From Paracoccus saliphilus (GTDB lineage Bacteria > Pseudomonadota > Alphaproteobacteria > Rhodobacterales > Rhodobacteraceae): a DNA stretch of 64,000 bases. Where the stretch lies: the NCBI RefSeq assembly GCF_028553805.1, contig NZ_CP067141.1, positions 1 to 64,000 of the forward strand. The letters are read 5' to 3'. How positions within the stretch are numbered: the first letter of the stretch is position 1; every line of letters begins with the position of its first letter. Below are positions 36,458 through 59,082 of the stretch, piece after piece. The notes beneath the pieces are model-generated. The model did not search any database, was not told where the DNA came from, and saw nothing but the letters and a program-made list of their open reading frames with translations. The position numbers and the translations under genes are program-made.

Positions 36458-37756
36458 CTATTGCCAGATGATCAGCCCGGGCAGCCAGATCAGGGTGAGG
36501 ATCAGGACCAGCGTGCAGGCCAGGTAGGGCAGGCAGGCGCGCACGACCTCCCAGATGGAGGTGCCTTTCGGTGCCACTCCGAGCATGACGAACAGCAGCA
36601 ACCCGAAGGGCGGCGTGGCAAGGCTCAGCTCCAGCGCCAGCAGCATGATGATGCCGAATTGCAGCGGATCGATCCCCTGCATGGCGATCAGCGGCATGAA
36701 GATCGGCAGGGTCAGCATCATGATCGACAACTGGTCCATGAACATCCCGAGCAGGACCAGCACCGCCAGCATGGCGAGCAAGGTGGCATGCGGTCCAAGC
36801 TCGAATCCCGCCATCCATGCGACCAGCCCCGCAGAGGCGCCGGAAAAGGCCAGAAGTTGCGAGAAGGTCGAGGAGGCGAGGATGATCACCAGCATCATGA
36901 CCGAGACCGACAATGTGCCCCATAGGGCCTTCTCGACCGCCGGCCAGCGCAGCTTGCCATAGAACAGCGCCAGGATTGCCACTGCCAGCACCCCGAAGGC
37001 GGCGGATTCGGTCGGGCTGGCCACGCCGAGGATGATCAGCCCGATCACGGCGAAGATCACCAGCCCCATCGGCGCGACATCGCGAAGCATCGCCAGCGCC
37101 TTTTCGCGGGTCGGCACCGAGACAGGCGAGACCGGCGGCGCGGCCTCGGGGTCGATCCAGACATGCAGCCGGATCACCGCCAGATACATGACCGACAGGA
37201 TGATCCCCGGCACCACGCCCGCCAGAAGCAACGCGCCGACATCGATCTTGGCCAGCGAGCCCAACAGCACCGCCAGCGACGAGGGCGGGATGATCATCGC
37301 GATGCTGCCGGTGGCGATGATCGGGCCCATGATCAGGCTTTTCTTGTAGCCGCGCTTTTCCATGTCGGGCATCAGGGTCGAGCCGAGCATGGCGGTATTG
37401 GCGATCGAACTGCCTGACAGCGTGGCGAAGATCGTGCCGCCGATCACCGTCAGATAGGCCAGCCGCGCCCGGATCGCGCCAAGGATCTTGTCCAGCGCGT
37501 CGAAGACCCGCACCGCCATGCCGGTATGGAACAGCAGCTCTCCCATCAGGATGAAGAGCGGCACCGGGACCAGCGCGAAAGAGGTGATCGAGGAGGTCGC
37601 ATTGGCGATCAGCTGGTCGATCCCGCCCAGCCCGCCCATGAAGGCCACCGCGCCGATCAGGTTGACCGTCAGGAAGGCGATGACCACGGGCGTGCCCAGG
37701 GCCATCAGGAACATGACTCCGCCACCCAAAAGCAGCGCCGCCGCTTGCCAGCTCAT
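36458..37756 (-). CDS. dctM: TRAP transporter large permease DctM (system 4)
   Basis: The 432-residue polytopic protein has the DctM loops (SGSSIANTAMLGSTLMPDM; SIAMIIPPSSLAVLLG). It is the last gene of the leftward unit opine-dehydrogenase-like / HAD / dctP / dctQ / dctM. The transcript ends close to the convergent FGE gene, with only 21 bp between them. The substrate is unknown, but the co-transcribed dehydrogenases suggest a carboxylic acid. Confidence 0.92.
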   Translation of the reverse strand: MSWQAAALLLGGGVMFLMALGTPVVIAFLTVNLIGAVAFMGGLGGIDQLIANATSSITSFALVPVPLFILMGELLFHTGMAVRVFDALDKILGAIRARLAYLTVIGGTIFATLSGSSIANTAMLGSTLMPDMEKRGYKKSLIMGPIIATGSIAMIIPPSSLAVLLGSLAKIDVGALLLAGVVPGIILSVMYLAVIRLHVWIDPEAAPPVSPVSVPTREKALAMLRDVAPMGLVIFAVIGLIILGVASPTESAAFGVLAVAILALFYGKLRWPAVEKALWGTLSVSVMMLVIILASSTFSQLLAFSGASAGLVAWMAGFELGPHATLLAMLAVLVLLGMFMDQLSIMMLTLPIFMPLIAMQGIDPLQFGIIMLLALELSLATPPFGLLLFVMLGVAPKGTSIWEVVRACLPYLACTLVLILTLIWLPGLIIWQ

Positions 37757-37768
37757 CCTTGCCCCTCC

Positions 37769-38272
37769 CTATGCCGAGACCGAGCCCTGCGGCTCGAAAC
37801 GTCGTTGCAGGATCAGCCGCAGGCATTCGGTGCCCATCAGGATGAAGCCGGTGGCGAGGATGCCGTAAGAAATCCATTCCGGCACCGCGATGGACCGGAC
37901 ATCCATGCCGCCCCGCAACCACTTGTCATATCCGACCATCGCCGAGCGCCAGCCGAGGATCAGCAGCGTGAGCGTCGAGATGGCGAGGGCCAGCGCCCCG
38001 GCGAATTTCCGGCCTGTGGGCGGGAGCAGCTCGACCAGCGAGGTGACGGTGATATGCCCGCGCCGGCGCATCAGCCATGGCGCCCCAAGCATGGTCGCGA
38101 AGAGCAGCGCATATTCGATCAGCGTGCTCGAGGCCCGGATGGAGCCCAGCCCCAGAAAGCGCATTGTCACATCGCCAAGGATCAGCCCGGTTGCCACCAG
38201 AAGCGAGATCACGGCAAATCCCGCTAGCAGGTGAATCAGGCCCGAATACAGCTTGCCCAGAATGGCCATCAT
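37769..38272 (-). CDS. dctQ: TRAP transporter small permease DctQ (system 4)
   Basis: The 167-residue protein has four hydrophobic segments with DctQ-type spacing. I start it at ATG 38272 (ATG 38269 is also possible), after GAGGG and just past the dctP stop codon. The longer frame begins inside dctP and lacks family character. It partners the DctM encoded 12 bp downstream. Confidence 0.85.
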   Translation of the reverse strand: MMAILGKLYSGLIHLLAGFAVISLLVATGLILGDVTMRFLGLGSIRASSTLIEYALLFATMLGAPWLMRRRGHITVTSLVELLPPTGRKFAGALALAISTLTLLILGWRSAMVGYDKWLRGGMDVRSIAVPEWISYGILATGFILMGTECLRLILQRRFEPQGSVSA

Positions 38273-38276
38273 GCCC

Positions 38277-39272
38277 TCAGCGATCGTAGAAGGTTTCGCG
38301 CAGCCGGTCGTAATAGGCCGACCCCGAATCCTCCAATGCCTGCCACGAAGTGTCATAGGCGGCATCGAGGAATGCCTCGGCGGCCTCGCCTTCAAGCTGG
38401 AAGGTCTCGACCCCGGCTTCGGCAAGCTCGGCCTCGGTTTCCTTGGCCAGTTCCGTGAAATGTTCGCCGCTCTGGACTTCCCAATCGGCGGCGGCCTGTG
38501 TCAGCAACTCTTGTGCCTCGGGCGCCAGCCCCTCCCAGGCTTCGGGATTGAGCACGATCGACAGATCGCCCTGGAAGAAACCCGGATCGATGCGGTATTT
38601 CAGGAACTTGTCCCAGGACAAATCGCGTATCCCGATCATCGGAAAGCCCAGCCCGTCGAAGGTGTTCCGCTCCAGCCCGGTATAGACATCGGGCACCGGA
38701 ACCGAGATCGGCACCGCGCCAAGGGATTCGAAGAACTTGTTATAGATCGGCAGGGCGCGAAGCTGCATGCCCGACAGGTCCACGCCGCCATCCTCGGTGC
38801 GCTTTGGCTCGCCGACGGTGTAGATATAGAAGCGAATATCCGAATCCGGGCGGCCAAGCAGATAGACGCCCAGCTTCTCGAGCATCGCCTCGCGCATCAC
38901 TTCCAGCCCGCCATTCTCGCGGGTTTCCACCGGATCGACGGTGCCGCCGACAAAGGCATAGGCCTCGGGCAGCGAGCCGATGGAGTAGGTGGCGGGGCCG
39001 TATTGCATATCGACGATGCCACGGCTGACGGCGTCGATTTGCTGGTTGGGCGGAAAGACCTCGGGCCCGCCCATCATCTGGATCTGCACCACGCCCTTGC
39101 CGCGTTCGTTCACCAGTTCGACGAAGCCCTGGAAGCTCTGCGCGAAGGCAAGGTTCGGCGGAAAGGCCGAGACGGCCTTGAGCGTGGTTTCGGCATAAGC
39201 CGCCGCGCTGCCCATAAGCGCGACGAGGCCGCTGGCGGCGAATAGTCTGAACATCTGGCGGGGGGGTTTCAT
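38277..39272 (-). CDS. dctP: TRAP transporter solute receptor DctP (system 4)
   Basis: The 331-residue protein starts with a signal peptide (MKPPRQMFRLFAASGLVALM, cleavage near AYAE). The DctP domain follows (LKAVSAFPPN; later GMQLRALPIYNKFFESLGAVPI with the ligand arginine). It lies 18 bp downstream of the 3-hydroxyacyl-CoA dehydrogenase gene in the same leftward operon. A second receptor for the same island (50431-51459) suggests that two related solutes are taken up. Confidence 0.9.
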   Translation of the reverse strand: MKPPRQMFRLFAASGLVALMGSAAAYAETTLKAVSAFPPNLAFAQSFQGFVELVNERGKGVVQIQMMGGPEVFPPNQQIDAVSRGIVDMQYGPATYSIGSLPEAYAFVGGTVDPVETRENGGLEVMREAMLEKLGVYLLGRPDSDIRFYIYTVGEPKRTEDGGVDLSGMQLRALPIYNKFFESLGAVPISVPVPDVYTGLERNTFDGLGFPMIGIRDLSWDKFLKYRIDPGFFQGDLSIVLNPEAWEGLAPEAQELLTQAAADWEVQSGEHFTELAKETEAELAEAGVETFQLEGEAAEAFLDAAYDTSWQALEDSGSAYYDRLRETFYDR

Positions 39273-39290
39273 TCGGTCAACTCCTGCTGG

Positions 39291-40307
39291 TCATTGTTCT
39301 GGCGGGGATCGGCGCGGCTCATCCGCGCTCGTGACGGGCTGGTTCCACAGTCCCGCATTGCGGACCGCCGCCAGGAACGCCCCAAGCCGTTCGCGGCGAT
39401 AGGCGTCGATGTCGCGGTCCGAGTAATCAAAGAAGCCCTGTCCGGTCCGCAGACCGATCTGGCCGTTCTCCATCTTGTCATTGACGATGGCGGGGGCGGC
39501 AAAGCGCTGCTCCCCGGTCGCCTGCGTCATGTAGCGGCTGGCGTGAAACAGGATGTCGCCACCGCCCCAATCGATGAATTCCAACAGCCCCAGAACCCCG
39601 AAGCGCAGGCCGAAGCCGTATTTCACCGCGCGGTCGACGTCTTCGGCGCTGGCCACGCCCTCTTCGACCAGCCGCGCCGCCTCGTTCATCGCCAATGCCT
39701 GGATGCGCGGGACGATATAGCCGGGCGAAGCCTTGCAGCGCACCGGAACCTTGCCAAGCTGTTCGAGGATCCGTTCCAGCCGGGCGAGGGTGTCGGGCTC
39801 GGTCTGGTCGCTCGGGCTGATCTCGACCAGCGGCACGAGGAAGGCGGGGTTGAGCCAATGCGCGTTCAGCGTCCGGCCGGGCAGGGCGGTCAGGCCCGCC
39901 AGTTCGGTTGCCAGCATGGTGGAGGTGGTCGAGGCAAGGATCGCGTCGCTTTCCGCGTGGCGATCCACCAGCGCAAAAGCGGCGGCCTTGGCGTCGTGGG
40001 TTTCCGGCACCGCCTCGAAGATCAGCTCGGCCCCGGCAAAAGCGGCCTCGGCCCGATCCGCCGGGTGGACCGAGACCCGGCCAAGGATGTCACCGACAAG
40101 CGCGGGATCGAACCCGCCCAGATCCGCGACCATGCTCAGGCTGCTGCCGATTTCGGCCAGCGCCTCGTCTTTCAGGCGCCGGAAATCCGCCGGATCGCGG
40201 GGTTTCATGTCCAGAAGCCGGACATCATGCCCGCCATGCGCCATGGCATGGGCGATCCCCCGGCCCATCCGGCCCGCGCCGAGGCAGAGGACCGGCCGCC
40301 GGCTCAT
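39291..40307 (-). CDS. 3-hydroxyacyl-CoA dehydrogenase family protein
   Basis: The 338-residue protein has an N-terminal NAD-binding domain (CLGAGRMGRGIAHAMAHGGH) and the HAD signature region around STTSTMLATELAG and NAHWLNPAFLVPLVEI. A C-terminal dimerisation domain (SPGYIVPRIQALAMNEA) follows. It would oxidise a 3-hydroxyacyl-CoA or a related hydroxy acid. The start at 40307 overlaps the stop of the opine-dehydrogenase-like gene by 4 bp (ATGA); a longer upstream frame overlaps that gene and has no family character. Confidence 0.88.
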   Translation of the reverse strand: MSRRPVLCLGAGRMGRGIAHAMAHGGHDVRLLDMKPRDPADFRRLKDEALAEIGSSLSMVADLGGFDPALVGDILGRVSVHPADRAEAAFAGAELIFEAVPETHDAKAAAFALVDRHAESDAILASTTSTMLATELAGLTALPGRTLNAHWLNPAFLVPLVEISPSDQTEPDTLARLERILEQLGKVPVRCKASPGYIVPRIQALAMNEAARLVEEGVASAEDVDRAVKYGFGLRFGVLGLLEFIDWGGGDILFHASRYMTQATGEQRFAAPAIVNDKMENGQIGLRTGQGFFDYSDRDIDAYRRERLGAFLAAVRNAGLWNQPVTSADEPRRSPPEQ

Positions 40308-41392
40308 GCCGCCGCCCCGGCCAGTGACAGCTTGCCACCCTGCAAAAGCTCGGTCATCTCGGCCCGGCTCAGGCCCGACAGACCCATCGCCTCGATCGTG
40401 CGCGGCCCGTGGCGCAGATCCCGCCCGGTCACCGCAGAGGCCAGCGCCAGCAGCCCCTTGGCCACCGGCACATCGACCCCGGCCCAATCGGCGACCGAGA
40501 CCAGCAGCGCAAGGCCATAGGCGATGTCTTCGCTCATGTAGCGGTGATCGTCGAGATTCAGCTTTTCATGCCAATCGCCCGAGCCCACCAGCTTGTCATG
40601 GGCCAGGTTGCCATACATCCACTGGTCGGTCTCGTAATGATCTCGCAGCGGGAAATGCGGGGCGGTATATCCAAGCGTCTCGCGCAGGGTGATGCGTTCC
40701 CCGTCCAGCGCGTCATGGATTCGGCGGATCGAGGGTTGCGTGCCCTCGTTATGGATATCCCAACGGTCGAAATGCTCGATCGGTCCGGCATTCATCAGGA
40801 TCAGCGGCGGGTGGATGATCGGCCCGGCATTCATCAGCGCGCCGGACAATGCGTCCTCGGACCGTTCGATCACGCCGGGAAAGGCGCGTCCTATAATCTC
40901 CAGGGCGCGATCGGTCAGCCTTGCGGGAAAGACACCGGTCGGCAGGCGCGAGGCGCGGGTGGTGATGCGCACGGCATCCGGCCCCTGCTTGCGCGCGAGC
41001 CATGGCAAGGTGCCGGTTTCGGCCAGCGCGATATCGGCGCTGCAACCGGCCTCGCGCAGGATTTGCGCCATGCGCAGGCTGCCGAAACTGCCGGGGGCGA
41101 GGAAGATCACCTGCCCGTCCCGCAGATGCGGGGCAAGGCTGCGGGCGATATCTTCCTGCGAGAAGGCGGGCGTCGGGATAAAGATCAGCTCGGCGCCGTC
41201 CAGCGCCGCTGCCAGATCATCGGTCGCCCGGACGGCAATCTCGCGGCTGCCCTTGTGGTCGATCAGGGTCAGCTCGGATGCGTCGGATTGCGGCCCGTTA
41301 CGCCGCCACCAGCCAATCTGATGCCCGGCCTCGGCGAAATCCGCCACGGCGGCAAAACACCCATTCCCTCCGCCTATCACTGCTATCTTCAT
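40304..41392 (-). CDS. Opine (octopine/nopaline) dehydrogenase family protein
   Basis: The 362-residue protein begins with a nucleotide-binding motif (MKIAVIGGGNGCFAAVADFA). Its C-terminal half carries the octopine-dehydrogenase domain, including NAGPIIHPPLILMNAGPIEH and MYGNLAHDKLV. Family members reduce or oxidise the imine linking an amino acid and a 2-oxo acid. It is first in a leftward five-gene unit with HAD and dctPQM. The promoter region contains a 16-bp sequence (41480-41495) repeated in inverted orientation at 53912, suggesting MarR control shared with the isatin-hydrolase/Ior genes. Confidence 0.85.
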   Translation of the reverse strand: MKIAVIGGGNGCFAAVADFAEAGHQIGWWRRNGPQSDASELTLIDHKGSREIAVRATDDLAAALDGAELIFIPTPAFSQEDIARSLAPHLRDGQVIFLAPGSFGSLRMAQILREAGCSADIALAETGTLPWLARKQGPDAVRITTRASRLPTGVFPARLTDRALEIIGRAFPGVIERSEDALSGALMNAGPIIHPPLILMNAGPIEHFDRWDIHNEGTQPSIRRIHDALDGERITLRETLGYTAPHFPLRDHYETDQWMYGNLAHDKLVGSGDWHEKLNLDDHRYMSEDIAYGLALLVSVADWAGVDVPVAKGLLALASAVTGRDLRHGPRTIEAMGLSGLSRAEMTELLQGGKLSLAGAAA

Positions 41393-41633: not shown

Positions 41634-42353
41634 CTAGATCGGCACCCCGCCGATACTCGCGCCGCCGCAAACATAAAGCGTTTGCCCGGAGACGAACCCG
41701 GCCTCGGGTTCGGCAAAGAACATGAAGGCGCGGGTGATATCCTCGACCGTGCCGAGCCGTCCGACCGGCAGGCGCGCGGCAAGGTCGCTTTCGGCATCGC
41801 TGCCTTTCGGGACGATGCCCCAGAAATTGTCGGTCTGCACCGGACCGGGGGCGACGACATTGACGGTGATCCCATGCGGGGCAAGCTCCAGCGCCCATGT
41901 CCGGGCCATGCCGATGATGCCCGCCTTGCTGGCCGAATAGGATGTCCGCGTCTTCGCCCCGAGCGCCGCGCGAGAGCCGTTGAACAGCACTCGCCCGAAA
42001 CCCCGCTCTTTCATCGCGGGCAGGAAGGCCTGTAGTAATTGCAGTGCCGCGCCCAAGTGAAGCTGGGTGAGGGTCTGCATCTCTTCGACGCGGGCATCCT
42101 CGATCAGGTTGGGCAGGATGATCCCGGCATTATGGACCAGATGCGTCACCCGGTGCCGCGCGGCGATCTCGGCTGCGGTTTGGGTCACGGCCTGCTGATC
42201 GGCCAGATCGGCGGTGACCTCCTCGATCCCCTCGGCCCCGGATCGGTGCCGCGCGATCGAGACGACATGCCAGCCCCGCCCCCGCATCGCCTGCGCCAGA
42301 TCGGCGCCGATGCCCTTGTTTCCGCCGGTGATGACGGCCGTGTAATCGCTCAT
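41634..42353 (-). CDS. Short-chain dehydrogenase/reductase (classical SDR)
   Basis: The 239-residue protein has a complete classical SDR set: ITGGNKGIGADLA cofactor loop, HNAGI, a serine (NGSRAALG) and the catalytic YSASKAG (YxxxK), then VAPGPVQT. It would oxidise or reduce a secondary alcohol or ketone in the catabolic island. It follows the cyclase-family gene with a 4-bp gap on the same strand, so they form one unit. The substrate is unknown. Confidence 0.9.
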   Translation of the reverse strand: MSDYTAVITGGNKGIGADLAQAMRGRGWHVVSIARHRSGAEGIEEVTADLADQQAVTQTAAEIAARHRVTHLVHNAGIILPNLIEDARVEEMQTLTQLHLGAALQLLQAFLPAMKERGFGRVLFNGSRAALGAKTRTSYSASKAGIIGMARTWALELAPHGITVNVVAPGPVQTDNFWGIVPKGSDAESDLAARLPVGRLGTVEDITRAFMFFAEPEAGFVSGQTLYVCGGASIGGVPI

Positions 42354-42357
42354 TCTC

Positions 42358-43140
42358 TCAGCCCTCCTTCTCGATCAGTGCCAGCACCCGCAGCGGACTG
42401 CCAGAGCCGTTCTCGATCTTGAGTGGCGCCGCGAGCAGGATGGCCCCGGCCGCCGGCAACCGGTCCAGATCGCACATGCATTGCAGCCCGTAGCGCCCCG
42501 CGCCATGCAGGGTGGCATGGGCCGGGTAGGGCGGATCCAGATGCCCCGCCTGCCCGGCATCGGTTCCCACCGTCTCGGTTCCGAAGCCGCGGATGTCGCG
42601 TTCCTCGACCAGGAAGCGGATCGCCTCGGGCGAGGGGCCGGGGGAATGCGCGCCATCCTCGCGCAGGTTCAGATAGGCCGCGCCCTGGCGTTTCGACCAG
42701 TCGGTGCGCAGAAAGACCCAGCAATCGGCGGGGACCCGTCCGTGGAGATCCTCCCATGCGTGGATATGCGCGACCTCCAGAAGTGCATCCTCGTCCGCTG
42801 CGGCCTCTGCGGTGAAATCGATCACCACGACCGGGCCGACGAAATTGCGCACCGGGATAGAGTCGGTGGCGCCATTGGGCACGTCCCGGCCGGTGATCCA
42901 ATGGCTTGGCGCGTCGAAATGCGTGCCGGTATGCTCGTTCATGGTGATCTCGTTCCAGCGCCATGCCGGGCCGCGATGGTCATAGGCGCTGACCTCGGTC
43001 TTGCGGAAGGCCGCGCATTGGGCGAATTCCGCTGGCAGGACCATGACCGGGAAATCCGGGGTCAGCCGGTGGGTGAGGTCAACTACCTCGACCCGGCCCA
43101 AGGCGAGCGCGCCGGATAATTGCGCGAGTATGCCGGTCAT
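42358..43140 (-). CDS. Cyclase-family hydrolase (PF04199), isatin-hydrolase/kynurenine-formamidase-like
   Basis: The 260-residue protein carries the metal-binding HTGTHFDAPSHW motif (about residues 76-87) of the cyclase family, which includes isatin hydrolase and bacterial kynurenine formamidase. It is a paralogue of the protein encoded at 54014-54805; both share openings like GRVEVVDLT, the VGTDAGQAG region and an ending of APLKxxNGxGSPxRxLAL. ATG 43140 follows GGAG. It would hydrolyse an amide or lactam ring. Whether the two paralogues have different substrates cannot be told from sequence. Confidence 0.85.
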   Translation of the reverse strand: MTGILAQLSGALALGRVEVVDLTHRLTPDFPVMVLPAEFAQCAAFRKTEVSAYDHRGPAWRWNEITMNEHTGTHFDAPSHWITGRDVPNGATDSIPVRNFVGPVVVIDFTAEAAADEDALLEVAHIHAWEDLHGRVPADCWVFLRTDWSKRQGAAYLNLREDGAHSPGPSPEAIRFLVEERDIRGFGTETVGTDAGQAGHLDPPYPAHATLHGAGRYGLQCMCDLDRLPAAGAILLAAPLKIENGSGSPLRVLALIEKEG

Positions 43141-43189
43141 GTGACTGCTCCTTTGCTGCATCGATTCGGTTGGAGCCGGGGTGCTGGTT

Positions 43190-43272: not shown

Positions 43273-44517
43273 TCATTTCGCCAGTGCTTCGCGGATGGCC
43301 AGAGCCGGGTCGTCGCGCCAGCGGGCATGGAGGTCGCGGGCGATCTCTCCGGCCGTTGCCTCTTCCTGCCCAGCGATCAAGGCCGAGACGATCGCGCGGG
43401 CCAGCGCCGAGGGCGTCACTTTCGGGGGCGGCAATTCCTGGTGCCATTCGTCGTCCACCGGCCCGGTATAGAGGTTCATCACCCGTACGCCGCTGCCACG
43501 CATATCGGCGCGCATGCCATGCGACATCGCCAGCGCGGCGGCGCCCGTGGCCGAGGTCATGCCATGGACGGGCTGAGGCACCAGCGCGCCGATGGGCAGG
43601 ATATTGACCCATGCGGTGGCGTTGTTCACTCCGTCCTCGCCCCGCGCGACCATGGCGCGGCCGAATGTCTGCGCCAGCCGCATCAGGCCAAGGCAGCCGG
43701 TCTCGATTTCCTGTCTTGCGAAGATCGTGTCCGGGCGCGCCAACGCGCCGCCCGGGCGGATGAAGCGGGCATTGTTGATCAGGATATCGGTCTTGCCGCC
43801 GATCTGGGCGGCCAGCTCCCGGGCCGAGTCGATATCGGTCACGTCCAGCGGCATGATGCTGCAATTCCCGATCTCTTCCAGCTCGCGGCGGGCGGGGAAG
43901 GGTTTCCACGCTTCGGGCAGGCCCAGGAAGATGTGCGATGCACCGGCCTTTTGCAAGGCGCGGGCGAGGGCGGGAGCCTCGGGCGCGCGGGCGTCGGTGA
44001 TCAGCACGCGGCGGTGGCGCGGATCGCAGGACAGGGCGCGCAGGGCGGGATCGTCTTGCATATGGGGGACCTCCTTGAGGGGCAGGGCGAGCAGGATCGC
44101 CTGGCCGGCAGCGTCGATGCGGTTGATCACCCGCACCCGGTCATCGCCCGAGACATCGCCATGCAACCGGCAGATCAGCGATGGCCCGGCATCCAGAAGC
44201 ACCGTGCCGATGCGGATCGGCAGCCGGTCGCGGAAATGCGTGTCGGGGGTGGCGCGGATCGTGGTTTCGGCGATCAACTGGCCCATCGGATCGGTATCAC
44301 GCCATTCCAGCGCTTCGGACAGGCAGCTGCGGCACAGGTCGCGGGGCGGATACTGGATGCGCCCGCAATCGGCGCAATGTTGCAGCGCGAACCGGCCCTC
44401 GGCGGCCATGACGCTCAGGCCGGTCGCGGCGCGAGACCGGGTTCCGGGCGGCGAAACCGGCACCCGCGTCCGCTTGAGCGGGTTCTTTTTCGGCGGTGGT
44501 TGCAGGGGTTTGGTCAT
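43273..44517 (-). CDS. DUF35 OB-fold/zinc-ribbon protein fused to a degenerate SDR domain
   Basis: Residues about 35-155 of this 414-residue protein are a DUF35-type module: a rubredoxin-like zinc ribbon (Cys48, Cys51, Cys62, Cys65 in CADCG...LCRSC) followed by an OB fold. Residues about 165-414 are SDR-like, but the glycine cofactor loop reads VLITDARAPEAPALA and the YxxxK site reads TSATGAAAL, so this domain is probably not a catalyst. DUF35 proteins are obligate partners of lipid-transfer-type thiolases and aldolases; the thiolase gene overlaps this one by 4 bp. I infer an accessory subunit of that enzyme. Confidence 0.8.
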   Translation of the reverse strand: MTKPLQPPPKKNPLKRTRVPVSPPGTRSRAATGLSVMAAEGRFALQHCADCGRIQYPPRDLCRSCLSEALEWRDTDPMGQLIAETTIRATPDTHFRDRLPIRIGTVLLDAGPSLICRLHGDVSGDDRVRVINRIDAAGQAILLALPLKEVPHMQDDPALRALSCDPRHRRVLITDARAPEAPALARALQKAGASHIFLGLPEAWKPFPARRELEEIGNCSIMPLDVTDIDSARELAAQIGGKTDILINNARFIRPGGALARPDTIFARQEIETGCLGLMRLAQTFGRAMVARGEDGVNNATAWVNILPIGALVPQPVHGMTSATGAAALAMSHGMRADMRGSGVRVMNLYTGPVDDEWHQELPPPKVTPSALARAIVSALIAGQEEATAGEIARDLHARWRDDPALAIREALAK

Positions 44518-50230: not shown

Positions 50231-50298
50231 TGTCCGATCCTGTTGGCGTTGCACAAATTCCTGCGCTGGCTGGCGATCTTGGGGCCGCCCTGTTTCGG

Positions 50299-50364: not shown

Positions 50365-50430
50365 TCTTGCGTGAAGGGGGCGTTTGGTGAGAGGCTTTCG
50401 GAAAAAGATTCGTCAACCGGGAGCCACCTC

Positions 50431-51935: not shown

Positions 51936-51969
51936 GATCAACCGAATATGGCTCTGGCAGGGAGGTAAC

Positions 51970-53256
51970 ATGGACTGGCCCTTTGGGATGGCGATCCTGT
52001 TCGCGATGCTGTTTCTGGGAATCCCGATCGGGTTCTCGCTGGTCCTGGTCGGCATTGTCGGCATTTCCAGCATCATCGGCCTGGACCCCGCCCTGTCCAT
52101 GCTGGGGCAGATCTTTTTCGACACCGCGCGCAGCTATTCCCTGTCGGTCGTGCCGATGTTCCTGCTGATGGGCAATTTCATCGTGCAGTCAGGGGTCGCC
52201 GACGAGATCTATGACGCCGCCAATGCGTGGCTGCGGCACCGCAAGGGCGGGTTGGCGATGGCGACCGTGGTGGCCTGCGGCGGGTTCGGCTCGGTCTGCG
52301 GCTCGTCTCTGGCGACGGCGGCGACGATGGGCAAGATTGCGCTGCCCGCGATGCGGCGGCACGGCTATTCCGACAGTCTTGCCACTGGCAGCATCGCTGC
52401 GGGCGGCACGCTTGGGATCATCATCCCGCCATCGGTCATCCTGGTGATCTATGGCATCCTGACGCAGCAGGATATCGGCAAGCTGTTTCTGGCAGGCATC
52501 ATTCCTGGCCTGCTCGGGGTGATCGGCTACATGATCGCCGTGCGGATTTCCCTGTGGATGCGTCCCGAGCATCTGACCCAGATGTCGCCGCTACCCTTGC
52601 GCGAACGGCTGCTGGCCCTGCGCGGCGTGCTGCCCGCGATGGTGCTGTTCGCCTTTGTGCTTGGCGGCATCTATCTGGGCGTTTTCACCGCCACCGAGGC
52701 GGCGGGAATGGGTGCGGGCGGGGCGATCCTGCTGACGGCCCTGCGCGGCAAGCTGACGGCGAGGGCCACGCTGACCACGCTGTTCGATTCGGGCAAGACC
52801 ACGGCGGCGATGTTCTTCATCCTGATCGGCGCGCTGTATTTCATGAATTACGTGAACCTGTCGGGCCTGTCCTCGGATATCAAGAATGGCGTTCTGTCGC
52901 TGAACATGCCGCCCTTCGGCATCCTGCTGATGATCTCGCTTTTGCTGCTGGTGCTGGGTTCGCTTCTGGAGAGCCTGTCGATGGTGACGCTGGTCGTGCC
53001 GGTGCTGTTCCCGATCGTCACCTCGCTTGGCATCGATCCGATCTGGTTCGGGATCTTCATCGTCGTGGCAGCCGAACTCAGCTATATCACCCCGCCGATG
53101 GGGATGAATGTCTTTGTCCTGCGCGTGGTCGCGCGCGAAGTGCCGGTGGGGCAGATATTCCGTGGTGTGACGCCCTTCGTGCTGATGGATATCGTCAGGT
53201 TGTTGCTGCTCATGCTGTTCCCGGCATTGGCTCTGGTCATTCCGAACTCGATGTAG
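51970..53256 (+). CDS. dctM: TRAP transporter large permease DctM (system 5)
   Basis: The 428-residue polytopic protein has DctM loops (CGGFGSVCGSSLATAATMGK; AAGGTLGIIIPPSVILVIYG; ELSYITPPMGMNVFVLR). ATG 51970 follows GGAGG by 5 bp; the longer frame begins inside dctQ. It completes a dctPQM transporter next to the dioxygenase genes, and is followed 3 bp later by a marR gene, so regulator and transporter are co-expressed. Confidence 0.92.
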   Translation: MDWPFGMAILFAMLFLGIPIGFSLVLVGIVGISSIIGLDPALSMLGQIFFDTARSYSLSVVPMFLLMGNFIVQSGVADEIYDAANAWLRHRKGGLAMATVVACGGFGSVCGSSLATAATMGKIALPAMRRHGYSDSLATGSIAAGGTLGIIIPPSVILVIYGILTQQDIGKLFLAGIIPGLLGVIGYMIAVRISLWMRPEHLTQMSPLPLRERLLALRGVLPAMVLFAFVLGGIYLGVFTATEAAGMGAGGAILLTALRGKLTARATLTTLFDSGKTTAAMFFILIGALYFMNYVNLSGLSSDIKNGVLSLNMPPFGILLMISLLLLVLGSLLESLSMVTLVVPVLFPIVTSLGIDPIWFGIFIVVAAELSYITPPMGMNVFVLRVVAREVPVGQIFRGVTPFVLMDIVRLLLLMLFPALALVIPNSM

Positions 53257-53259: not shown

Positions 53260-53757
53260 ATGGATGACATGAGCGATCATAACAGCGACAAGCCGGAGGC
53301 CGAAGAGCCGTTCCTGGCTGATTACCTGCAATTCCTGTTGGCCACCGCCAGCGGATTGGCGAGCCATGGGTTCCACGTGCAGGCGGCTGCCGCGGGCGTG
53401 TCGGTCGCTGAATGGCGGGTGCTGGCCTGCCTGAGCGATTGCGACGGCCAGTCGGTGACCGAACTGGCCCGGCTTGCGCAGATGGAGCAGTCGCGCCTGA
53501 CCCGGGTGATCGAGCGGATGGACAATCGCGGCCATGTCACCCGCAAACGCTGTCAGGACGACCGGCGCAAGGTCTATGTCTGGCTGACCGAGCAGGGCGC
53601 AGGGATCGGCCGCGATCTTGTCGCCCGCGCCAGGACGCATGAGGCCGAGTTCATCGAAAGCTGCCTGAGCCCGGCCGAAGGCCGCCGCCTCAAGGCACTG
53701 CTGACCCGGCTGATCGAGCGCGCCGGCAAGGGCAAGGTCCACGCCATCCGCCGTTGA
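53260..53757 (+). CDS. MarR-family regulator 1
   Basis: The 165-residue protein has the MarR winged helix: VSVAEWRVLACLSDCDGQSVTELARLAQMEQSRLTRVIERM, then the basic wing KRCQDDRRKVYVWLTEQG. It would bind a palindromic operator and release it on binding an aromatic acid. It is the last gene of the dctPQM unit. Its targets may be the 50.3 kb divergent promoter or the shared sites at 41480 and 53912; the sequence alone cannot decide between it and the second MarR. Confidence 0.9.
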   Translation: MDDMSDHNSDKPEAEEPFLADYLQFLLATASGLASHGFHVQAAAAGVSVAEWRVLACLSDCDGQSVTELARLAQMEQSRLTRVIERMDNRGHVTRKRCQDDRRKVYVWLTEQGAGIGRDLVARARTHEAEFIESCLSPAEGRRLKALLTRLIERAGKGKVHAIRR

Positions 53758-54013: not shown

Positions 54014-54805
54014 ATGACTGCAAGTGAAACTCTTGGCGCATTGGCCGGTCTGCTCGCCTCGGGCAAGGTCGAGGTCGTGGACCTGACGGCGACGCTCGGT
54101 CCCGATACGCCATTGCTGAAATTGCCGCCCGAGCTGGCCGTGGACACGCCGCCGGTGAAGATCCACAAGATCAGCGAATATGATAATAACGGCCCGTTCT
54201 GGGCCTGGAACTGGCTGGAGCTGGGCGAACATTCCGGCACTCATTTCGACGCGCCGCATCACTGGGTCACCGGCAAGGATTATGCCGAAGGCTATACCGA
54301 CACGCTGGATGTCCAGCGGCTGATCGCGCCCGTGAACGTGCTGGATTTCAGCAAGGAATCCACCGAAGATCCCGATTTCCTGCTGACGGTCGAACATATC
54401 AAGGCATGGGAGGCCGAGCACGGCGAAATCGGCGCGGGCGAATGGGTGGTTCTGCGTAGCGATTGGGATCGCCGCAACCATGACGAGGCACAGTTTCTCA
54501 ACGCTGACGAGACCGGCCCGCATACGCCCGGACCGACCCATGACGCGATCCAGTACCTGATCGACAAGGATATCGTCGGATGGGGCAGCCAATGCATCGG
54601 CACCGATGCCGGGCAGGCCGCGACGATGGACCCGATCTTTCCGGCCCATAACCTGCTGCACAAGCATAACCGCTTCGGCCTCGCCTCGCTGACCAACCTC
54701 GATCGCCTGCCGCCAAAAGGCGCGATCCTGATCCCGGCGCCGCTGAAATTCCTGAACGGCACCGGCTCGCCCATCAGGGCATTGGCGCTTGTGGCGCGGG
54801 GGTAG
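54014..54805 (+). CDS. Isatin-hydrolase-like cyclase-family enzyme
   Basis: The 263-residue protein has the metal motif HSGTHFDAPHHW (His73, His77, Asp79, His83 region). Its overall sequence strongly resembles, from memory, the manganese-dependent isatin hydrolase of Labrenzia aggregata, including EIHKISEYD-like and WGSQCIGTDAGQA segments. Isatin hydrolase opens isatin to isatinate. The gene is first in an operon with marR and ior genes. Isatinate is a 2-oxo acid and so a natural substrate for the Ior-type enzyme encoded downstream. The exact substrate is inferred. A kynurenine formamidase role is the main alternative. Confidence 0.75.
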   Translation: MTASETLGALAGLLASGKVEVVDLTATLGPDTPLLKLPPELAVDTPPVKIHKISEYDNNGPFWAWNWLELGEHSGTHFDAPHHWVTGKDYAEGYTDTLDVQRLIAPVNVLDFSKESTEDPDFLLTVEHIKAWEAEHGEIGAGEWVVLRSDWDRRNHDEAQFLNADETGPHTPGPTHDAIQYLIDKDIVGWGSQCIGTDAGQAATMDPIFPAHNLLHKHNRFGLASLTNLDRLPPKGAILIPAPLKFLNGTGSPIRALALVARG

Positions 54806-54853: not shown

Positions 54854-55336
54854 ATGACCCAGGATGATCACAGCCAAACCGCCGCCGCTCCCCGGCTCGG
54901 GGAAATCGGGCTTGCGAATTTCGCGCCCTACCTGATGAACCGGATCATGGGGCGCTATAACGCCTCGTTGCGCGACGAAATGGCGAGGCTCGGTCTCAGC
55001 ACGCCCAAGATGCGCGCGCTGGCGGTGCTGTCGGTCATTGACGGGCCGCTGATCCGCGAGCTGGCGATCTATGCCGTGGTGGAACAGTCCACCCTGTCGC
55101 GCGCCCTCGATCAACTGGTCGGTGACGGGCTGATCCGGCGCGCGCAGGATAGCAGCGACAGCCGCGCGACGCGGGTCTATCTGACCGAAGCGGGGCGGGC
55201 GTCATTCGACCGGCTCTGGCCGCATATGGCCGCCGCCGAGGCCGAGATGTTCCGGGGCGTCCCCGACGAGGACAAGCGCGTCTTCGTGGGCACCCTGCAG
55301 AGAGTTCTGAAAAACATACGCAAACACGAGATCTAA
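54854..55336 (+). CDS. MarR-family regulator 2
   Basis: The 160-residue protein has a long N-terminal helix region (FAPYLMNRIMGRYNASLRDE), then the winged helix with VVEQSTLSRALDQLVGDGLI as the recognition region and RAQDSSDSRATRVYLTEAG as the wing. It lies between the isatin-hydrolase-like and ior genes in one operon, 48 bp and 54 bp from its neighbours. Auxin-degradation loci of the iad type are known to be controlled by MarR proteins, so an indolic acid is a plausible effector. Binding to the shared 16-bp sites is my inference. Confidence 0.9.
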   Translation: MTQDDHSQTAAAPRLGEIGLANFAPYLMNRIMGRYNASLRDEMARLGLSTPKMRALAVLSVIDGPLIRELAIYAVVEQSTLSRALDQLVGDGLIRRAQDSSDSRATRVYLTEAGRASFDRLWPHMAAAEAEMFRGVPDEDKRVFVGTLQRVLKNIRKHEI

Positions 55337-55390
55337 TCCGGGCCCGGCAGGTCCGGCCCGCGTGCTCGTGCGTAGCCGAAGGAGAAGAAG

Positions 55391-57538
55391 ATGGCAGAGC
55401 GATCATTCAAGGCCGAGGTCAAGCATCTGCGCCTCGGCGCGGGCGAGAGCTTTACCGGCGAAGGTATTCTGGCCATCACCAAGGCGCTTCTGGAAAACGG
55501 CGTGGGCTATGTCGGCGGCTATCAGGGCGCGCCGATCAGCCATCTGATGGATGTTCTGGCCGATGCCGAGGAATTGCTGACCGAACTGGGCGTTCGTTTC
55601 GAAGCCAATGCGAACGAGGCGGCGGCGGCGGCAATGCTGGCGGCCTCGGTACATTACCCGATCCGGGGCGCGGTGACCTTCAAGGGCTCGGTCGGGGTGA
55701 ACGTGGCCTCGGATGCGCTGGCGAACCTGGCCTCGTCGGGGGTGAATGGCGGCGCGCTGGTGATCGTGGGCGAAGATTACGGCGAAGGCTCCTCGATCAT
55801 GCAGGAGCGGACCCATGGTTTCGCGATGAAATCGCAATTCTGGCTGCTGGATCCGCGCCCCAACCTGCCCTCGATCGTCAAGGCGGTGGGGGATGGTTTC
55901 GAGCTGTCCGAGGCGTCGAATACCCCGGTCATGCTGATGGTGCGGATCCGCGCCTGCCACGTGACCGGCAGTTTCCCCACCCGCGACAATCAAAGCCCCA
56001 GGCTGAGCGTCCGCGACGCCCTGTCCAATCCGCAATCGGATTTCTCGCGCGTGGTGCTGCCGCCGATGAGCTTCGCGCATGAGCAGGACAAGATCGACAA
56101 CCGCCGTCCCGCCGCCGAAGGCTACATCCGCGATCACAAGCTGAACGAGGTTTTCGGCCCGCGCGAGGCGCCTGTCGGGCTGGTCCTTCAGGGCGGCATG
56201 TATAACAGCGTGATCCGCGCGCTGCAGCGGCTTGGCCTGGCCGATATTCATGGCGAAAGCCAGGTGCCGCTTTACGTGCTGAACGTCACCTATCCGCTGG
56301 TTCCCGACGAGTTCCTGTCCTTCTGCGAGGGCAAGGAGCAGGTGCTGACCATCGAAGAGGGTCAGCCGGAATTCATCGAGCAACAGCTATCGACCTATCT
56401 TTACCGTGCCGGATCGACGGTCAAGTTGCGCGGCAAGGACGTTCTGCCGATGGCCGGGGAATATACCGGGCAGGTGATGCTGGACGGGATCGGCCAGTTC
56501 CTGCGCGAGGCCGCACCCGGTATCCTGCCCGCGCAAGTCCTGGCCCCGAACGAGGAACGCCCGCCGCTTCCCGATCTGTCCAAGACCGTGCCGATCCGCC
56601 CGCCCGGCTTCTGCATCGGCTGCCCCGAGCGCCCGATTTTCGCGGCGATGAAACTGGTGCAAAAGGAAACCGGCAAGCTGCAGATCTCGGCCGATATCGG
56701 CTGCCATCTCTTTGCCGCGCTGCCGCCTTTCGAGATCGGCGGGGCGACCATGGGTTACGGGCTTGGACCCGCCGCGAATGCCGCTTTCGACGGCGGCGGC
56801 GAGCGCAGGCCAGTGGCGGTGATCGGCGATGGCGGGTTCTGGCATAACGGCTTGTCGTCCAGCTTCACCAACATGGCCTTCAACAAGTCCGATGGCGTGG
56901 CGGTGATCGTGGACAATTACTATTCCGCCGCGACAGGCGGGCAGGACGTGATGTCGTCCCGCGCCGACAACCCGACGAAATCCACGAAGAACCCCATCTC
57001 CAAGGCGTTGAAGGGGATCGGCATCAATTGGGTGCGGCAGGTCGATCGCACCTATGATGTCGGCAAGATGCGCGACGTGTTGCGCGAGGCGCTGACCACC
57101 GATGCGCCGGGACCGCGCGTCATCGTCGCCTCGTCGGAATGCATGCTGAACCGGCAGCGCCGGGAAAAGCCGCAGCGCGCGCAGGCGATCCGCGATGGCC
57201 GCCGGGTCGAGGCGCCGCGCTTCGGCGTGGACGAGGATGTCTGCACCGGCGATCACGCCTGTATCCGGCTGTCGGGCTGCCCCTCGCTCGGGCTGAAGCG
57301 GCTGGACGATCCGCTGCGCGACGACCCGGTCGCCTCGATCGATCAAAGCTGCGTCGGCTGCGGCAATTGCGGCGAGGTGGCGGATGCCGCCGTGCTCTGC
57401 CCCTCGTTCTACCGTGCGGATCTTGTCCATAACCCCGGCAAATGGGAGACCCGGCTGGCCCGGTTCCGCGCCCGCATCATCGGCTGGCTGCAGGCCCGCC
57501 GCAACGCCAGCCGCCTGACATTCGAGGCCCAGTCATGA
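55391..57538 (+). CDS. Indolepyruvate ferredoxin oxidoreductase-like alpha subunit
   Basis: The 715-residue protein has the order pyrimidine-binding domain (N terminus, GYQGAPISHLMDVLAD), central region, thiamine-diphosphate domain (FCIGCPERPIFAA, then GDGGFWHNGLSSSFTNMAFN), and C-terminal ferredoxin-like region. The second cluster motif CVGCGNCGEVADAAVLCPSF is standard. The first reads CTGDHACIRLSGCPSL and has altered spacing. Such enzymes oxidatively decarboxylate aryl 2-oxo acids to acyl-CoA. With isatin hydrolase upstream, isatinate is the likely substrate, giving anthraniloyl-CoA or anthranilate. It overlaps the beta gene by 4 bp. Confidence 0.88.
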   Translation: MAERSFKAEVKHLRLGAGESFTGEGILAITKALLENGVGYVGGYQGAPISHLMDVLADAEELLTELGVRFEANANEAAAAAMLAASVHYPIRGAVTFKGSVGVNVASDALANLASSGVNGGALVIVGEDYGEGSSIMQERTHGFAMKSQFWLLDPRPNLPSIVKAVGDGFELSEASNTPVMLMVRIRACHVTGSFPTRDNQSPRLSVRDALSNPQSDFSRVVLPPMSFAHEQDKIDNRRPAAEGYIRDHKLNEVFGPREAPVGLVLQGGMYNSVIRALQRLGLADIHGESQVPLYVLNVTYPLVPDEFLSFCEGKEQVLTIEEGQPEFIEQQLSTYLYRAGSTVKLRGKDVLPMAGEYTGQVMLDGIGQFLREAAPGILPAQVLAPNEERPPLPDLSKTVPIRPPGFCIGCPERPIFAAMKLVQKETGKLQISADIGCHLFAALPPFEIGGATMGYGLGPAANAAFDGGGERRPVAVIGDGGFWHNGLSSSFTNMAFNKSDGVAVIVDNYYSAATGGQDVMSSRADNPTKSTKNPISKALKGIGINWVRQVDRTYDVGKMRDVLREALTTDAPGPRVIVASSECMLNRQRREKPQRAQAIRDGRRVEAPRFGVDEDVCTGDHACIRLSGCPSLGLKRLDDPLRDDPVASIDQSCVGCGNCGEVADAAVLCPSFYRADLVHNPGKWETRLARFRARIIGWLQARRNASRLTFEAQS

Positions 57539-59082
57539 CCCTGCACCAGCATCTGCCATCCGCCCCTGCCGATCCGCGCCTGGACGGGATCATCAAGCTC
57601 GCGATCCTTGCGGTCGGCGGGCAGGGGGGCGGCGTGTTGACCAACTGGATCGAGGCGCTGGCCCGCCGCAACGGCTATGTGGCGCAAGCCACCAGCGTCG
57701 CGGGCGTGGCGCAGCGCACCGGCGCGACGGTCTATTACATCGAGATGGCGCCGCAGGCTGACGCCGCCCAGGTTTTCGCGCTGGCGCCCTCGACTGGTGA
57801 TGTCGATATCATGATCGCCGCCGAGATGATGGAGGCAGGGCGCTCGATCCAGCGCGGCTTCGTGACCCCTGACCGGACGGTGCTGATCGCCTCGACCCAT
57901 CGCGCGCTTGCGGTATCGGAAAAGATGGTGCCGGGTGACGGCATTGCCTCGTCCGAAGAGGTGATCGCAGCGGCAGAGATCGCCGCGCGGCAGTTCATCT
58001 CGGCCGATTTCGACCAGATGGCCATCAATAATGGATCGGTCATCTCGGCCTCGCTGTTCGGGGCCCTGGCCGGGTCGGGCGCGCTGCCTTTCCCGCGCGA
58101 GGCTTTCGAGGATGCGATCCGGGCGGGCGGCAAGGGGGTGGAAGGCTCGCTTCGCGCCTTTGCCGCAGCATATGACTATGCGCGTGCGCCTGCAGAGGAA
58201 TCGACGTCGACCGAGCCGGGGACAGTGACTGCCCCGCGCCCATCGGGCCCCGCGCGGCTGGTCACGCAGTGGCGGGAATTGGAGGCGAGAGCCACCGCAC
58301 TGCCCGCACAGGTCACCGAGATGGCCCTGCCCGGCCTGCGCAAGGTGGTCGAGTTCCAGGATCTTGCCTATGGGCGGGAATACCTGGACCGGCTTGACGA
58401 AGTGCTAACGCAGGACGATGCCGAACATGATTTCATGCTGACGCGGGAAGCGGCGAAATATATCGCCAATGCGATGGCTTATGACGATGTGATCCGGGTG
58501 GCCGATCTCAAGACCCGGTCCAGCCGGATGACCCGGATCCAGGCCGAGATGCGGGCGGGCGAAGACAACCTGATGCAGGTGACGGAATACATGCATCCCC
58601 GCGCCGAGGAAATCGCCGGAATGCTGCCTGCCGGATTGGGTCAGAAGGCGATGGACAGCCCGAAATGGATGAAGCGGCTGGATCGCTGGTTCAACAAGGG
58701 CCGCCGGTTGCGCAGCGACAGTCTGCGCGGCTATGTCATGCTGCATATGTTGGGCGGATTGAAGGGCTGGCGCCGCCGCACCCTGCGCCACGCGCAGGAA
58801 CAGGCGCATCTGGCCGATTGGCTGAGCCGGGCGATGGACTACCGCGCGGCCAATTACGATCTGGCGGTCGAGCTGGTCCGCTGCCGTCGCCTGGTCAAGG
58901 GTTATTCGGACACCCATGCCCGTGGGTTGTCGAAATTCGATCTTGTGCTGGAGGGGATCGCCACCGTCGCCGCCCGTCCGGATGCTGCGGATTGGGCACG
59001 TCGGTTGCGCGAAGCCGCGCTGCAGGACGAGGAAGGCAAGGCCCTTGAGGGCGCCATCGGGACGATCCGGAGTTTTGCCTGA
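57535..59082 (+). CDS. Indolepyruvate oxidoreductase-like beta subunit with C-terminal DUF6537-type extension
   Basis: Residues about 20-200 of this 515-residue protein are the gamma/beta domain of 2-oxoacid:ferredoxin oxidoreductases (AILAVGGQGGGVLTNWIEALA; VAGVAQRTGATVYYIEM). The remaining ~300 residues form a helical extension of the DUF6537 type that accompanies this subclass. ATG 57535 overlaps the alpha stop codon (ATGA); the longer frame lies inside the alpha gene. A repeat element starts 18 bp after its stop codon, probably marking the end of the operon. Confidence 0.87.
   Translation: MTLHQHLPSAPADPRLDGIIKLAILAVGGQGGGVLTNWIEALARRNGYVAQATSVAGVAQRTGATVYYIEMAPQADAAQVFALAPSTGDVDIMIAAEMMEAGRSIQRGFVTPDRTVLIASTHRALAVSEKMVPGDGIASSEEVIAAAEIAARQFISADFDQMAINNGSVISASLFGALAGSGALPFPREAFEDAIRAGGKGVEGSLRAFAAAYDYARAPAEESTSTEPGTVTAPRPSGPARLVTQWRELEARATALPAQVTEMALPGLRKVVEFQDLAYGREYLDRLDEVLTQDDAEHDFMLTREAAKYIANAMAYDDVIRVADLKTRSSRMTRIQAEMRAGEDNLMQVTEYMHPRAEEIAGMLPAGLGQKAMDSPKWMKRLDRWFNKGRRLRSDSLRGYVMLHMLGGLKGWRRRTLRHAQEQAHLADWLSRAMDYRAANYDLAVELVRCRRLVKGYSDTHARGLSKFDLVLEGIATVAARPDAADWARRLREAALQDEEGKALEGAIGTIRSFA

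Follow-up and report, generated by a model that had tools for sequence, protein, structure and literature searches.

The first 64,000 nucleotides of contig NZ_CP067141.1 of Paracoccus saliphilus (assembly GCF_028553805.1), hereafter the window, contain an island at 36458-59082 made of two divergent blocks of open reading frames. It raises the question of how a locus for the catabolism of indole-3-acetic acid (IAA) removes the side chain of its substrate. Our answer is that the island, judged by its sequence, is very probably an iad-like IAA catabolism locus, a member of a described class, in which the thiolase-fold protein IadG and its partner IadH probably cleave dioxindole-3-acetyl-coenzyme A (DOAA-CoA) by a retro-aldol reaction into isatin and acetyl-CoA, replacing the proposed ketothiolase and dehydrogenase. 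The class itself is already known; the variant features here are uptake by tripartite ATP-independent periplasmic (TRAP) transporters, a conserved promoter palindrome and an optional opine-dehydrogenase module. A TRAP-type, probably plasmid-borne variant of iad-like loci is a well-supported description of the predicted locus. Bacteria that degrade auxin influence root growth, and root bacteria are being equipped with iad genes by engineering (PMC12633357). Side-chain loss in the iad pathway has so far been explained from annotation, and the aldolase reading is a specific and cheaply testable revision.

Identity of the locus

The minus-strand block consists, in order, of a reductase, a Rieske alpha and a Rieske beta subunit, a CoA ligase, a thiolase-fold protein, a fusion of DUF35 with a short-chain dehydrogenase/reductase (SDR), a cyclase, an SDR, an opine-dehydrogenase-family protein, a 3-hydroxyacyl-CoA dehydrogenase and dctPQM. 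The plus-strand block consists of dctPQM, a MarR regulator, a cyclase, a second MarR regulator and the large and small Ior subunits. Every named gene has family support except dctQ1, which was placed by its position and its relatives. All the genes named in the original prediction were recovered as open reading frames. Between 41634 and 50254 the minus strand carries the same eight kinds of genes as the Variovorax set iadC-D-E-F-G-H-I-J, in naming order:

49238..50254, minus strand: iadC, oxygenase reductase with a 2Fe-2S domain (Fer2 and NAD_binding_1 domains)
47880..49199 (open reading frame open to 49397), minus strand: iadD, Rieske oxygenase alpha subunit (9o71, 7yls/8h2t)
47416..47883 (open reading frame listed to 48015), minus strand: iadE, Rieske oxygenase beta subunit (PF00866)
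45683..47416 (open reading frame listed to 47455), minus strand: iadF, acyl-CoA ligase (AMP-binding domains)
44514..45686, minus strand: iadG, thiolase-fold protein, proposed retro-aldolase (Sal aldolase 9myr, Foldseek, YDDYPV)
43273..44517, minus strand: iadH, DUF35 fused to a degenerate SDR domain (PF12172, PF01796, adh_short)
42358..43161, minus strand: iadI, isatin hydrolase A (5nna, E-value 5e-124; LaIHA active-site residues)
41634..42353, minus strand: iadJ, SDR dehydrogenase (intact motifs TGGNKGIG and YSASK)

In Variovorax these genes are annotated as reductase (iadC), Rieske oxygenase (iadDE), acyl-CoA synthase (iadF), acetyl-CoA acetyltransferase (iadG), alcohol dehydrogenase (iadH), kynurenine formamidase (iadI) and dehydrogenase (iadJ); the oxygenase step, the IadJ step and the requirement for IadF-I have already been published (PMC12633357). 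The Variovorax order iadC-J is suggested by gene names and IMG numbers (PMC10374108).

Related loci were represented by the best 80 of at least 568 confirmed relatives, some of them on short contigs. The closest of these 80 belongs to Paracoccus alkanivorans, with 97% identity in the Rieske alpha subunit. Homologues with at least 45% identity were present in 80 loci for IadD and IadE, 76 for IadC, 72 for IadJ, 64 for IadF, 63 for IadH and IadI and 62 for IadG. The full run from C to J was contiguous, ordered and on one strand in 54 loci, several of the other 26 lying on short contigs, and this gene order far exceeds chance. The best solved relatives of IadD were 9o71 (E-value 7e-172) and 7yls/8h2t (5e-170), and its Rieske CxH/CxxH and DxxHxxxxH ligands are kept. 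The structure 9o71 is IadDE of V. paradoxus CL014 (PMC12633357). Locus L125, from a genome of another class, has iadD-E-F-G-H-I-J in the same order with 44-59% identity to the window (56% for IadD), and its IadD is closely like the 9o71 chain when compared by eye. This shared order and resemblance tie the window to the characterised iad type. The Ior genes iadA and iadB (iotA, iorB) are reported as exclusive markers of the iad class (PMC9613470), and both are present in the window by family-level assignment. In general family scans, with no search aimed at Iac proteins, no island gene fell in an iacA-, iacB- or iacI-like family.

One arrangement weighs against the identification: in 13 of the 80 loci, D-E-J are contiguous with no F-I in between. 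These are L004, L006, L007, L008, L013, L017, L028, L040, L041, L063, L071, L074 and L075; in L063 and L071, F-G-H-I form a separate unit, which together with the D-E-J runs suggests two pathway sub-modules. The auxin-type degradation that had been predicted for the island was largely right, given the ordered iadC-J set and the IAA enzyme as nearest solved relative of IadD. Comparison with characterised enzymes returned Variovorax IadD, isatin hydrolases A and B and, behind 3cdh, IadR as best solved relatives, and no unrelated pathway.

Side-chain removal

In the Variovorax proposal, based on annotation, an acyl-CoA synthase, a ketothiolase (IadG) and a dehydrogenase (IadH) remove the side chain (PMC12633357). 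The original prediction had similarly invoked a CoA ligase and a thiolase: the ligase stands, while IadG is without the thiolase residues and closest to the Sal and Ltp2 aldolases. In the alignment with 7yvy, read by eye, the thiolase nucleophile Cys is replaced by Gly86 and the GHP His by Gln332, both columns being invariant in 38 sequences. The position of the Cys in the HDCF motif of SCP-2 thiolases is not Cys either, the motif reading YDDY. Judged by these residues, IadG fails as a thiolase.

The best solved sequence match of IadG was 9myr, a Sal-Shy(DUF35) aldolase (E-value 5e-50), followed by 4u4e, a putative thiolase, and 6ok1, an Ltp2-ChsH2(DUF35) aldolase. An AlphaFold2 model was built from 38 sequences (mean predicted local distance difference test score 81.6; below 50 for residues 129-142, 200-208 and 372-376). 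In a Foldseek search with this model, Sal and Ltp2 aldolase chains took ranks 1-3, and TbSLP and thiolases came next at similar scores. A Tyr acts as catalytic base in these aldolases, belonging to YDHF in TcLtp2 and to YDCY in CtSal, where SCP-2 thiolases have HDCF, and two Gln residues are proposed to tune the Sal active site (PMC12329534). IadG keeps the Tyr of the aldolase base within YDDYPV, invariant in 63 of 63 sequences (the window and 62 loci), as well as both Gln residues (in GGQL and GQ).

IadH turned out to be more than the separate DUF35 partner first described: DUF35 was correct, but the protein is a single chain in which a DUF35 zinc ribbon/OB fold at the N-terminus precedes an SDR-like domain. 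The zinc-finger cysteines of DUF35 are present (C-x2-C-x10-C-x2-C). In the SDR half, the catalytic Lys was found in 0 and the catalytic Tyr in 5 of 64 sequences, and all 64 have Asp in place of the nucleotide motif's first glycine. Because Lys and this glycine are lost and Tyr is mostly lost, IadH is unlikely to be a working dehydrogenase. The L125 protein has Phe at the Tyr position and keeps the Lys. Unlike IadH, IadJ has intact SDR motifs.

A thiolase needs a beta-keto thioester, whereas the hydroxyl at the beta position of the thioester DOAA-CoA is a tertiary alcohol. Since a tertiary alcohol cannot become a beta-keto group, thiolysis should be unavailable to this compound on chemical reasoning. 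Retro-aldol cleavage would supply the next enzyme with its substrate isatin and would release acetyl-CoA, as Sal does. For iad pathways in general we consider it likely, if a shade less so than for the window, that IadG and the DUF35-pseudoSDR protein IadH represent a new DUF35-partnered aldolase branch that forms isatin and acetyl-CoA directly, neither thiolysis nor a dehydrogenase being involved. A narrow literature search, whose one match was a general review on metabolic engineering, found no earlier statement of a retro-aldol mechanism for IAA.

Another gene content was observed on a plasmid of Azospirillum thermophilum (L085, 5339-21385), where IorAB, iadCDEF and iadJ are directly followed by a salicylyl-CoA 5-hydroxylase-type gene and by genes for an SDR, an enoyl-CoA hydratase, an acyl-CoA dehydrogenase, a thioesterase and RidA. 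This stretch is without iadG, iadH and iadI, and side-chain processing may be different there.

Isatin opening and the fate of isatinate

The steps after isatin involve iadI and four genes of the plus-strand block:

54014..54805, plus strand: isatin hydrolase B (4j0n, E-value 2.5e-136)
54854..55336, plus strand: MarR2, adjoining IorAB (MarR family; next to IorA in several loci)
55391..57538, plus strand: iadA, Ior-type thiamine pyrophosphate oxidoreductase large subunit (TIGR03336, 267 bits, under the equivalog cut-off of 651)
57442..59082, plus strand: iadB, Ior-type gamma domain with DUF6537 (NF006179, 690 bits for a cut-off of 348; PF01558, PF20169)

The predicted presence of isatin hydrolase was borne out twice, the cyclase of the minus block (iadI) matching isatin hydrolase A (5nna) and that of the plus block isatin hydrolase B (4j0n). 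The Mn-binding and catalytic residues of the Labrenzia enzyme LaIHA are His69, His73, Asp75, His79, Asp193, His207, Gln219, Trp59 and Trp61 (PMC6117287). All nine are present, by motif positions and with an offset of +8, in the A protein of the window, for which this was checked. The A enzyme looks like the core isatin enzyme and B like an optional one, because P. alkanivorans is without a B copy between its two MarR genes. In the raw locus counts each place was assigned to its top-scoring query, so that B was under-counted where it competed with A, and weak matches were taken in; the homologues were recounted at 45% identity.

On plasmids of Tritonibacter, Sulfitobacter and Alloyangia (L084, L127, L129), isatin hydrolase B, MarR2 and IorAB stand beside NAD(P)/FAD-dependent oxidoreductases and an ATP-binding cassette (ABC) transporter. 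No IadD was found within these stretches, which possibly hold a module for indole or isatin degradation.

For the next step we lean, with little more than balanced confidence, towards anthraniloyl-CoA as the plausible product of IorAB from isatinate. IadD homologues (E-value up to 1e-80) were found in 8 of 398 genomes of the phylum and in 12 of 121 of the genus, own genome counted in both. Within the genus sample, IorA accompanied IadD in 12 of 12 positive genomes and occurred in 7 of 109 negative ones (Fisher p 4e-12, phylogeny uncorrected; all our Fisher tests and the palindrome shuffles below ignore relatedness of genomes and loci). Its identity to the window copy was 80-100% in the former and 66-67% in the latter. 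Among 15 plasmid IorA loci, hand-chosen from two record listings (49 records in one), an isatin hydrolase gene was near in 8, none of these 8 stretches having IadD, and a 'salicylyl-CoA 5-hydroxylase'-type (aryl-CoA hydroxylase) gene in 3. The plasmid of one of the 8, Sulfitobacter faviae NZ_CP116420, does carry IadD at another position. The chromosome of P. saliphilus itself encodes an aryl-CoA hydroxylase (NF006101, 1299 bits for a cut-off of 1078) together with an enoyl-CoA hydratase, an acyl-CoA dehydrogenase and an SDR; this hydroxylase family, we presume, includes anthraniloyl-CoA enzymes. Co-occurrence with IadD, neighbouring genes and this operon all fit an anthraniloyl-CoA product.

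It is nevertheless possible, at somewhat lower odds, that IorAB acts on aryl-pyruvate or another 2-oxo acid, and that isatinate passes through 2-aminobenzaldehyde to anthranilate by other enzymes. IorA scores below the IOR equivalog cut-off, which leaves its substrate unassigned. A Variovorax region iadC-K2 without iadAB restored anthranilate, IadAB being dispensable there, and C7H7NO was detected (PMC12633357). Near the chromosomal hydroxylase operon, a benzoate-CoA-ligase-family gene (368 bits, slightly below its cut-off of 375) could use free anthranilate. This gene and the dispensability of iadAB keep the anthraniloyl-CoA assignment conditional. Also weighing against that assignment, 5 of the 15 plasmid loci had neither isatin hydrolase nor hydroxylase near, and IorAB was inside the fetched stretch in only 12-13 of the 80 loci. 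The 2-oxo-acid alternative has to face the association of IorA with IadD in all 12 genomes, the isatin hydrolase next to IorAB in 8 of 15 plasmid loci with IadD in none of these stretches, and the aryl-CoA hydroxylase next to it in 3.

Ketothiolase or aldolase

For the side chain itself, the published annotation could hold, with IadG as a ketothiolase and IadH as an alcohol dehydrogenase leading to dioxindole, oxidised later; we judge this unlikely. It agrees with the Variovorax annotations and with the accumulation, in Variovorax without iadI, of C8H7NO2, the formula of dioxindole and not of isatin (PMC12633357). IadG moreover has the thiolase fold, and true thiolases also came high in the structure ranking.

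Like the C8H7NO2, several features of IadG and its loci count against an aldolase. The essential general acid of Sal, Cys304, corresponds to Asp284 in IadG, and the Sal variants Ala, Ser and His at Cys304 are all dead (PMC12329534). Tyr344 of Ltp2, equivalent to Sal Gln352 by published correspondence and thereby aligned to IadG Gln332, has no counterpart; direct alignment to 6ok1 instead pairs it with Gly334. No iadG with at least 45% identity was present in the fetched stretch of 18 of the 80 loci. Asp284 may be a substitute for Cys304, and in-cell reduction of isatin to dioxindole, offered as reasoning, would account for the C8H7NO2. As the Sal/Ltp2 general acid is not matched, we do not file IadG as Sal or Ltp2. 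What tells against a ketothiolase and a dehydrogenase is the loss of the thiolase Cys and His to Gly and Gln (by eye), YDDY in 63 of 63 IadG sequences, the SDR Lys lost in 64 of 64 IadH sequences and the tertiary alcohol of DOAA-CoA, which by chemical reasoning cannot give the beta-keto thioester that thiolases need.

Regulation

The divergent promoter region and the first regulator gene are:

50304..50315, no strand assigned: palindrome ATGA-N4-TCAT, candidate IadR operator in the divergent promoter (59/77 upstream regions)
53260..53757, plus strand: MarR1, IadR-like regulator (3cdh, then 7kfo/7kki, MarR_73)

MarR1 matched the uncharacterised 3cdh best (E-value 3.5e-32), then 7kfo, 7kki and 7krh. 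The latter three are structure codes of the IadR paper, 7kfo being Variovorax MarR_73 with IAA, and IAA binding by IadR is published for Variovorax (PMC9613470). Of the seven IAA contacts of MarR_73, compared by eye on the 7kki alignment, five (Tyr15, Ser28, His32, Trp45 and Arg46) are identical in MarR1 and two are replaced (Ala18 by Phe, Val65 by Leu); all 3 carboxylate contacts are kept. Homologues of MarR1 with at least 40% identity were found in 74 of the 80 loci.

Upstream of iadC, the palindrome ATGA-N4-TCAT (consensus TTATATGAAATTTCATATTT) was found in 59 of 77 regions, window included, for an expectation from 30 shuffles of 0.5 on average and 2 at most, relatedness of loci not being controlled. 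The motif had been picked after inspecting three sequences. There were 80 copies in all 80 loci (1.57 Mb), and 58 of 76 loci tested had one at the iadC-upstream place, 54 of these 58 with a -35-like TTGAC box at most 22 bases before it. We propose this palindrome as the predicted IadR operator. It was not found in nine distant loci scanned (L084, L085, L120-L126), which weakens the proposal. The published Variovorax site has 24 bases and lies between iadR and iadA (PMC9613470).

Another candidate operator, AATTCCTGC, has 3 copies in the window, each of them in a promoter region of the island, a count reached by 3 of 100 shuffles. It was rejected: the promoters of L003 and L005 are without it, and it occurs in 1 of 77 upstream regions, where shuffles average 0.3.

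Uptake

Each block contains one set of TRAP genes:

38277..39272, minus strand: dctP1, TRAP solute-binding protein (nearest solved 4mnc/4mni by sequence and by model)
37769..38278, minus strand: dctQ1, TRAP small permease (between dctM1 and dctP1; homologues in 15/80 loci)
36458..37756, minus strand: dctM1, TRAP large permease (TIGR00786, 265.6 bits, slightly below the cut-off of 268.45)
50371..51459, plus strand: dctP2, TRAP solute-binding protein, aromatic-acid type (4p56, E-value 3.5e-76; 7nr2, 2e-50; 5i5p, 5iga)
51456..51935, plus strand: dctQ2, TRAP small permease (weak YiaM match, E-value 6e-4; homologues in 56/80 loci)
51874..53256, plus strand: dctM2, TRAP large permease (TIGR00786, 315 bits, above cut-off)

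The fetched stretches contained a TRAP large permease in 62 of the 80 loci; binding proteins of the TRAP kind, some of only about 33-41% identity, were present in 63. In only 22 loci did the identity of a binding protein to DctP2 reach 50%, and there is therefore more than one TRAP type among iad loci. ABC binding proteins found near IorAB on other plasmids (L083, L136) had no match in the 80 loci, and the peptide-type ABC binding protein of L127 matched 2; in L125 no TRAP was present, and its ABC binding protein is of the L083 kind. The TRAP arrangement is thus real and common among relatives of this locus. It had been suggested to be new for such a locus: it does differ from the ABC proteins of Variovorax, but relatives commonly have it. 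Narrow literature searches found no paper on IAA catabolism via isatin with a TRAP transporter.

DctP2 resembles 4p56, the coumarate/cinnamate protein 7nr2/7nra and the aromatic-acid-specific 5i5p/5iga. We take 4mnc/4mni and 4p56 to have been solved with benzoylformate and mandelate, an assumption from which we claim no ligand.

Opine-dehydrogenase module

Two further genes lie between iadJ and dctP1:

40304..41392, minus strand: octopine/nopaline dehydrogenase-family protein (PF02317)
39291..40310 (open reading frame listed to 40487), minus strand: 3-hydroxyacyl-CoA dehydrogenase-family protein (NF006125, 471 bits for a cut-off of 427)

The first was missing from the original gene list and is added here; the second, listed as 'HAD', is actually a 3-hydroxyacyl-CoA dehydrogenase. 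The opine-dehydrogenase gene was found in 14 of the 80 loci, always (14/14) adjoining the 3-hydroxyacyl-CoA dehydrogenase gene, and in 10 of these with a dctP1 of at least 50% identity. In the genus sample it occurred in 5 of 12 IadD-positive and 2 of 109 IadD-negative genomes (Fisher p 7.5e-5). The module with its TRAP set is an optional feature of iad-like loci. Both dehydrogenase genes and a second TRAP recur beside iad genes in the window (36458-41392) and in L016, L037, L045, L051, L054, L057, L060 and L061.

Replicon and neighbouring genes

The replicon measures 242,883 bp, the window being its first part, and the same genome also holds a 4.38-Mb contig. It is probably a plasmid, because it starts with parA- and repB/parB-type genes. 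Bordering the island at 32570-36436 are a further TRAP binding protein and two divergent genes, one for a sulfatase and one of formylglycine-generating-enzyme type. At 21312-30608 lies a histidine-utilisation-like cluster (HutF-like, amidohydrolase, urocanase, aromatic amino acid lyase, GntR-UTRA regulator). In genus genome G415 (contigs C12 and C19; L118, L119, L142, L147) the Rieske alpha, IorA and opine-dehydrogenase matches each come in two pieces, three of the pieces having a stop inside, and the locus seems to be decaying there.

Proposed pathway

The DctPQM2 TRAP transporter would take up IAA, IadCDE would oxygenate its indole ring and dehydrogenation by IadJ would lead to dioxindole-3-acetate, which IadF would convert to DOAA-CoA. 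IadG with the DUF35 part of IadH would release isatin and acetyl-CoA by retro-aldol cleavage. Isatin hydrolase (IadI, and the second copy B) would open isatin to isatinate, and IorAB (IadAB) would decarboxylate it oxidatively, most likely to anthraniloyl-CoA, degradable by the chromosomal aryl-CoA monooxygenase/reductase-type operon. MarR1 would repress the divergent promoter through ATGA-N4-TCAT and be released by IAA.

It is very improbable that an indolic or aryl acid other than IAA (e.g. indole-3-lactate, indole-3-carboxylate or isatin) is the substrate of the locus: plasmids of Tritonibacter, Sulfitobacter, Alloyangia and Paracoccus do have stretches with isatin hydrolase B, MarR2 and IorAB but no IadD, and the window has two TRAP systems and an unexplained opine-dehydrogenase module, but the iadC-J set is complete, MarR1 keeps the carboxylate contacts of IadR and the nearest solved IadD is the IAA enzyme. 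Read as an IAA locus, the island shows TRAP-type iad genes in many, mostly alphaproteobacterial, relatives and supplies a candidate operator for the auxin-sensing repressor.

Comparison with known systems

With the iad locus of Variovorax paradoxus CL14/CL014 (PMC9613470, PMC10374108, PMC12633357) the island shares the iadC-J set and its order, the iadAB markers and two MarR regulators. It differs in having TRAP where Variovorax has ABC binding proteins, in having iadAB apart from iadC-J, in a divergent block together with MarR2 and another isatin hydrolase, in its extra module of opine dehydrogenase, 3-hydroxyacyl-CoA dehydrogenase and TRAP, and in being probably plasmid-borne. The iac loci, known from Pseudomonas putida 1290 (PMC9613470), likewise have Rieske-type genes and IAA as substrate, whereas the route expected here leads to anthraniloyl compounds and not to catechol.

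The isatin hydrolases A and B of Labrenzia (Roseibium) aggregata (PMC6117287) resemble those of the window in sequence and, for A, in metal and catalytic residues; in the window, the A gene is part of the iad operon and the B gene of the IorAB block. An A-type gene within an iad operon is also present in locus L027 of Roseibium aggregatum.

Finally, IadG is like the steroid side-chain aldolases Sal-Shy and Ltp2-ChsH2 in its thiolase fold, catalytic Tyr and DUF35 partner, and like Sal in both Gln residues near the active site, Sal also being an enzyme that releases acetyl-CoA (PMC12329534). It differs from both in reading YDDY in place of YDCY or YDHF, in a DUF35 partner fused to a pseudo-SDR and in its substrate, which would be an oxindole where theirs is a steroid.

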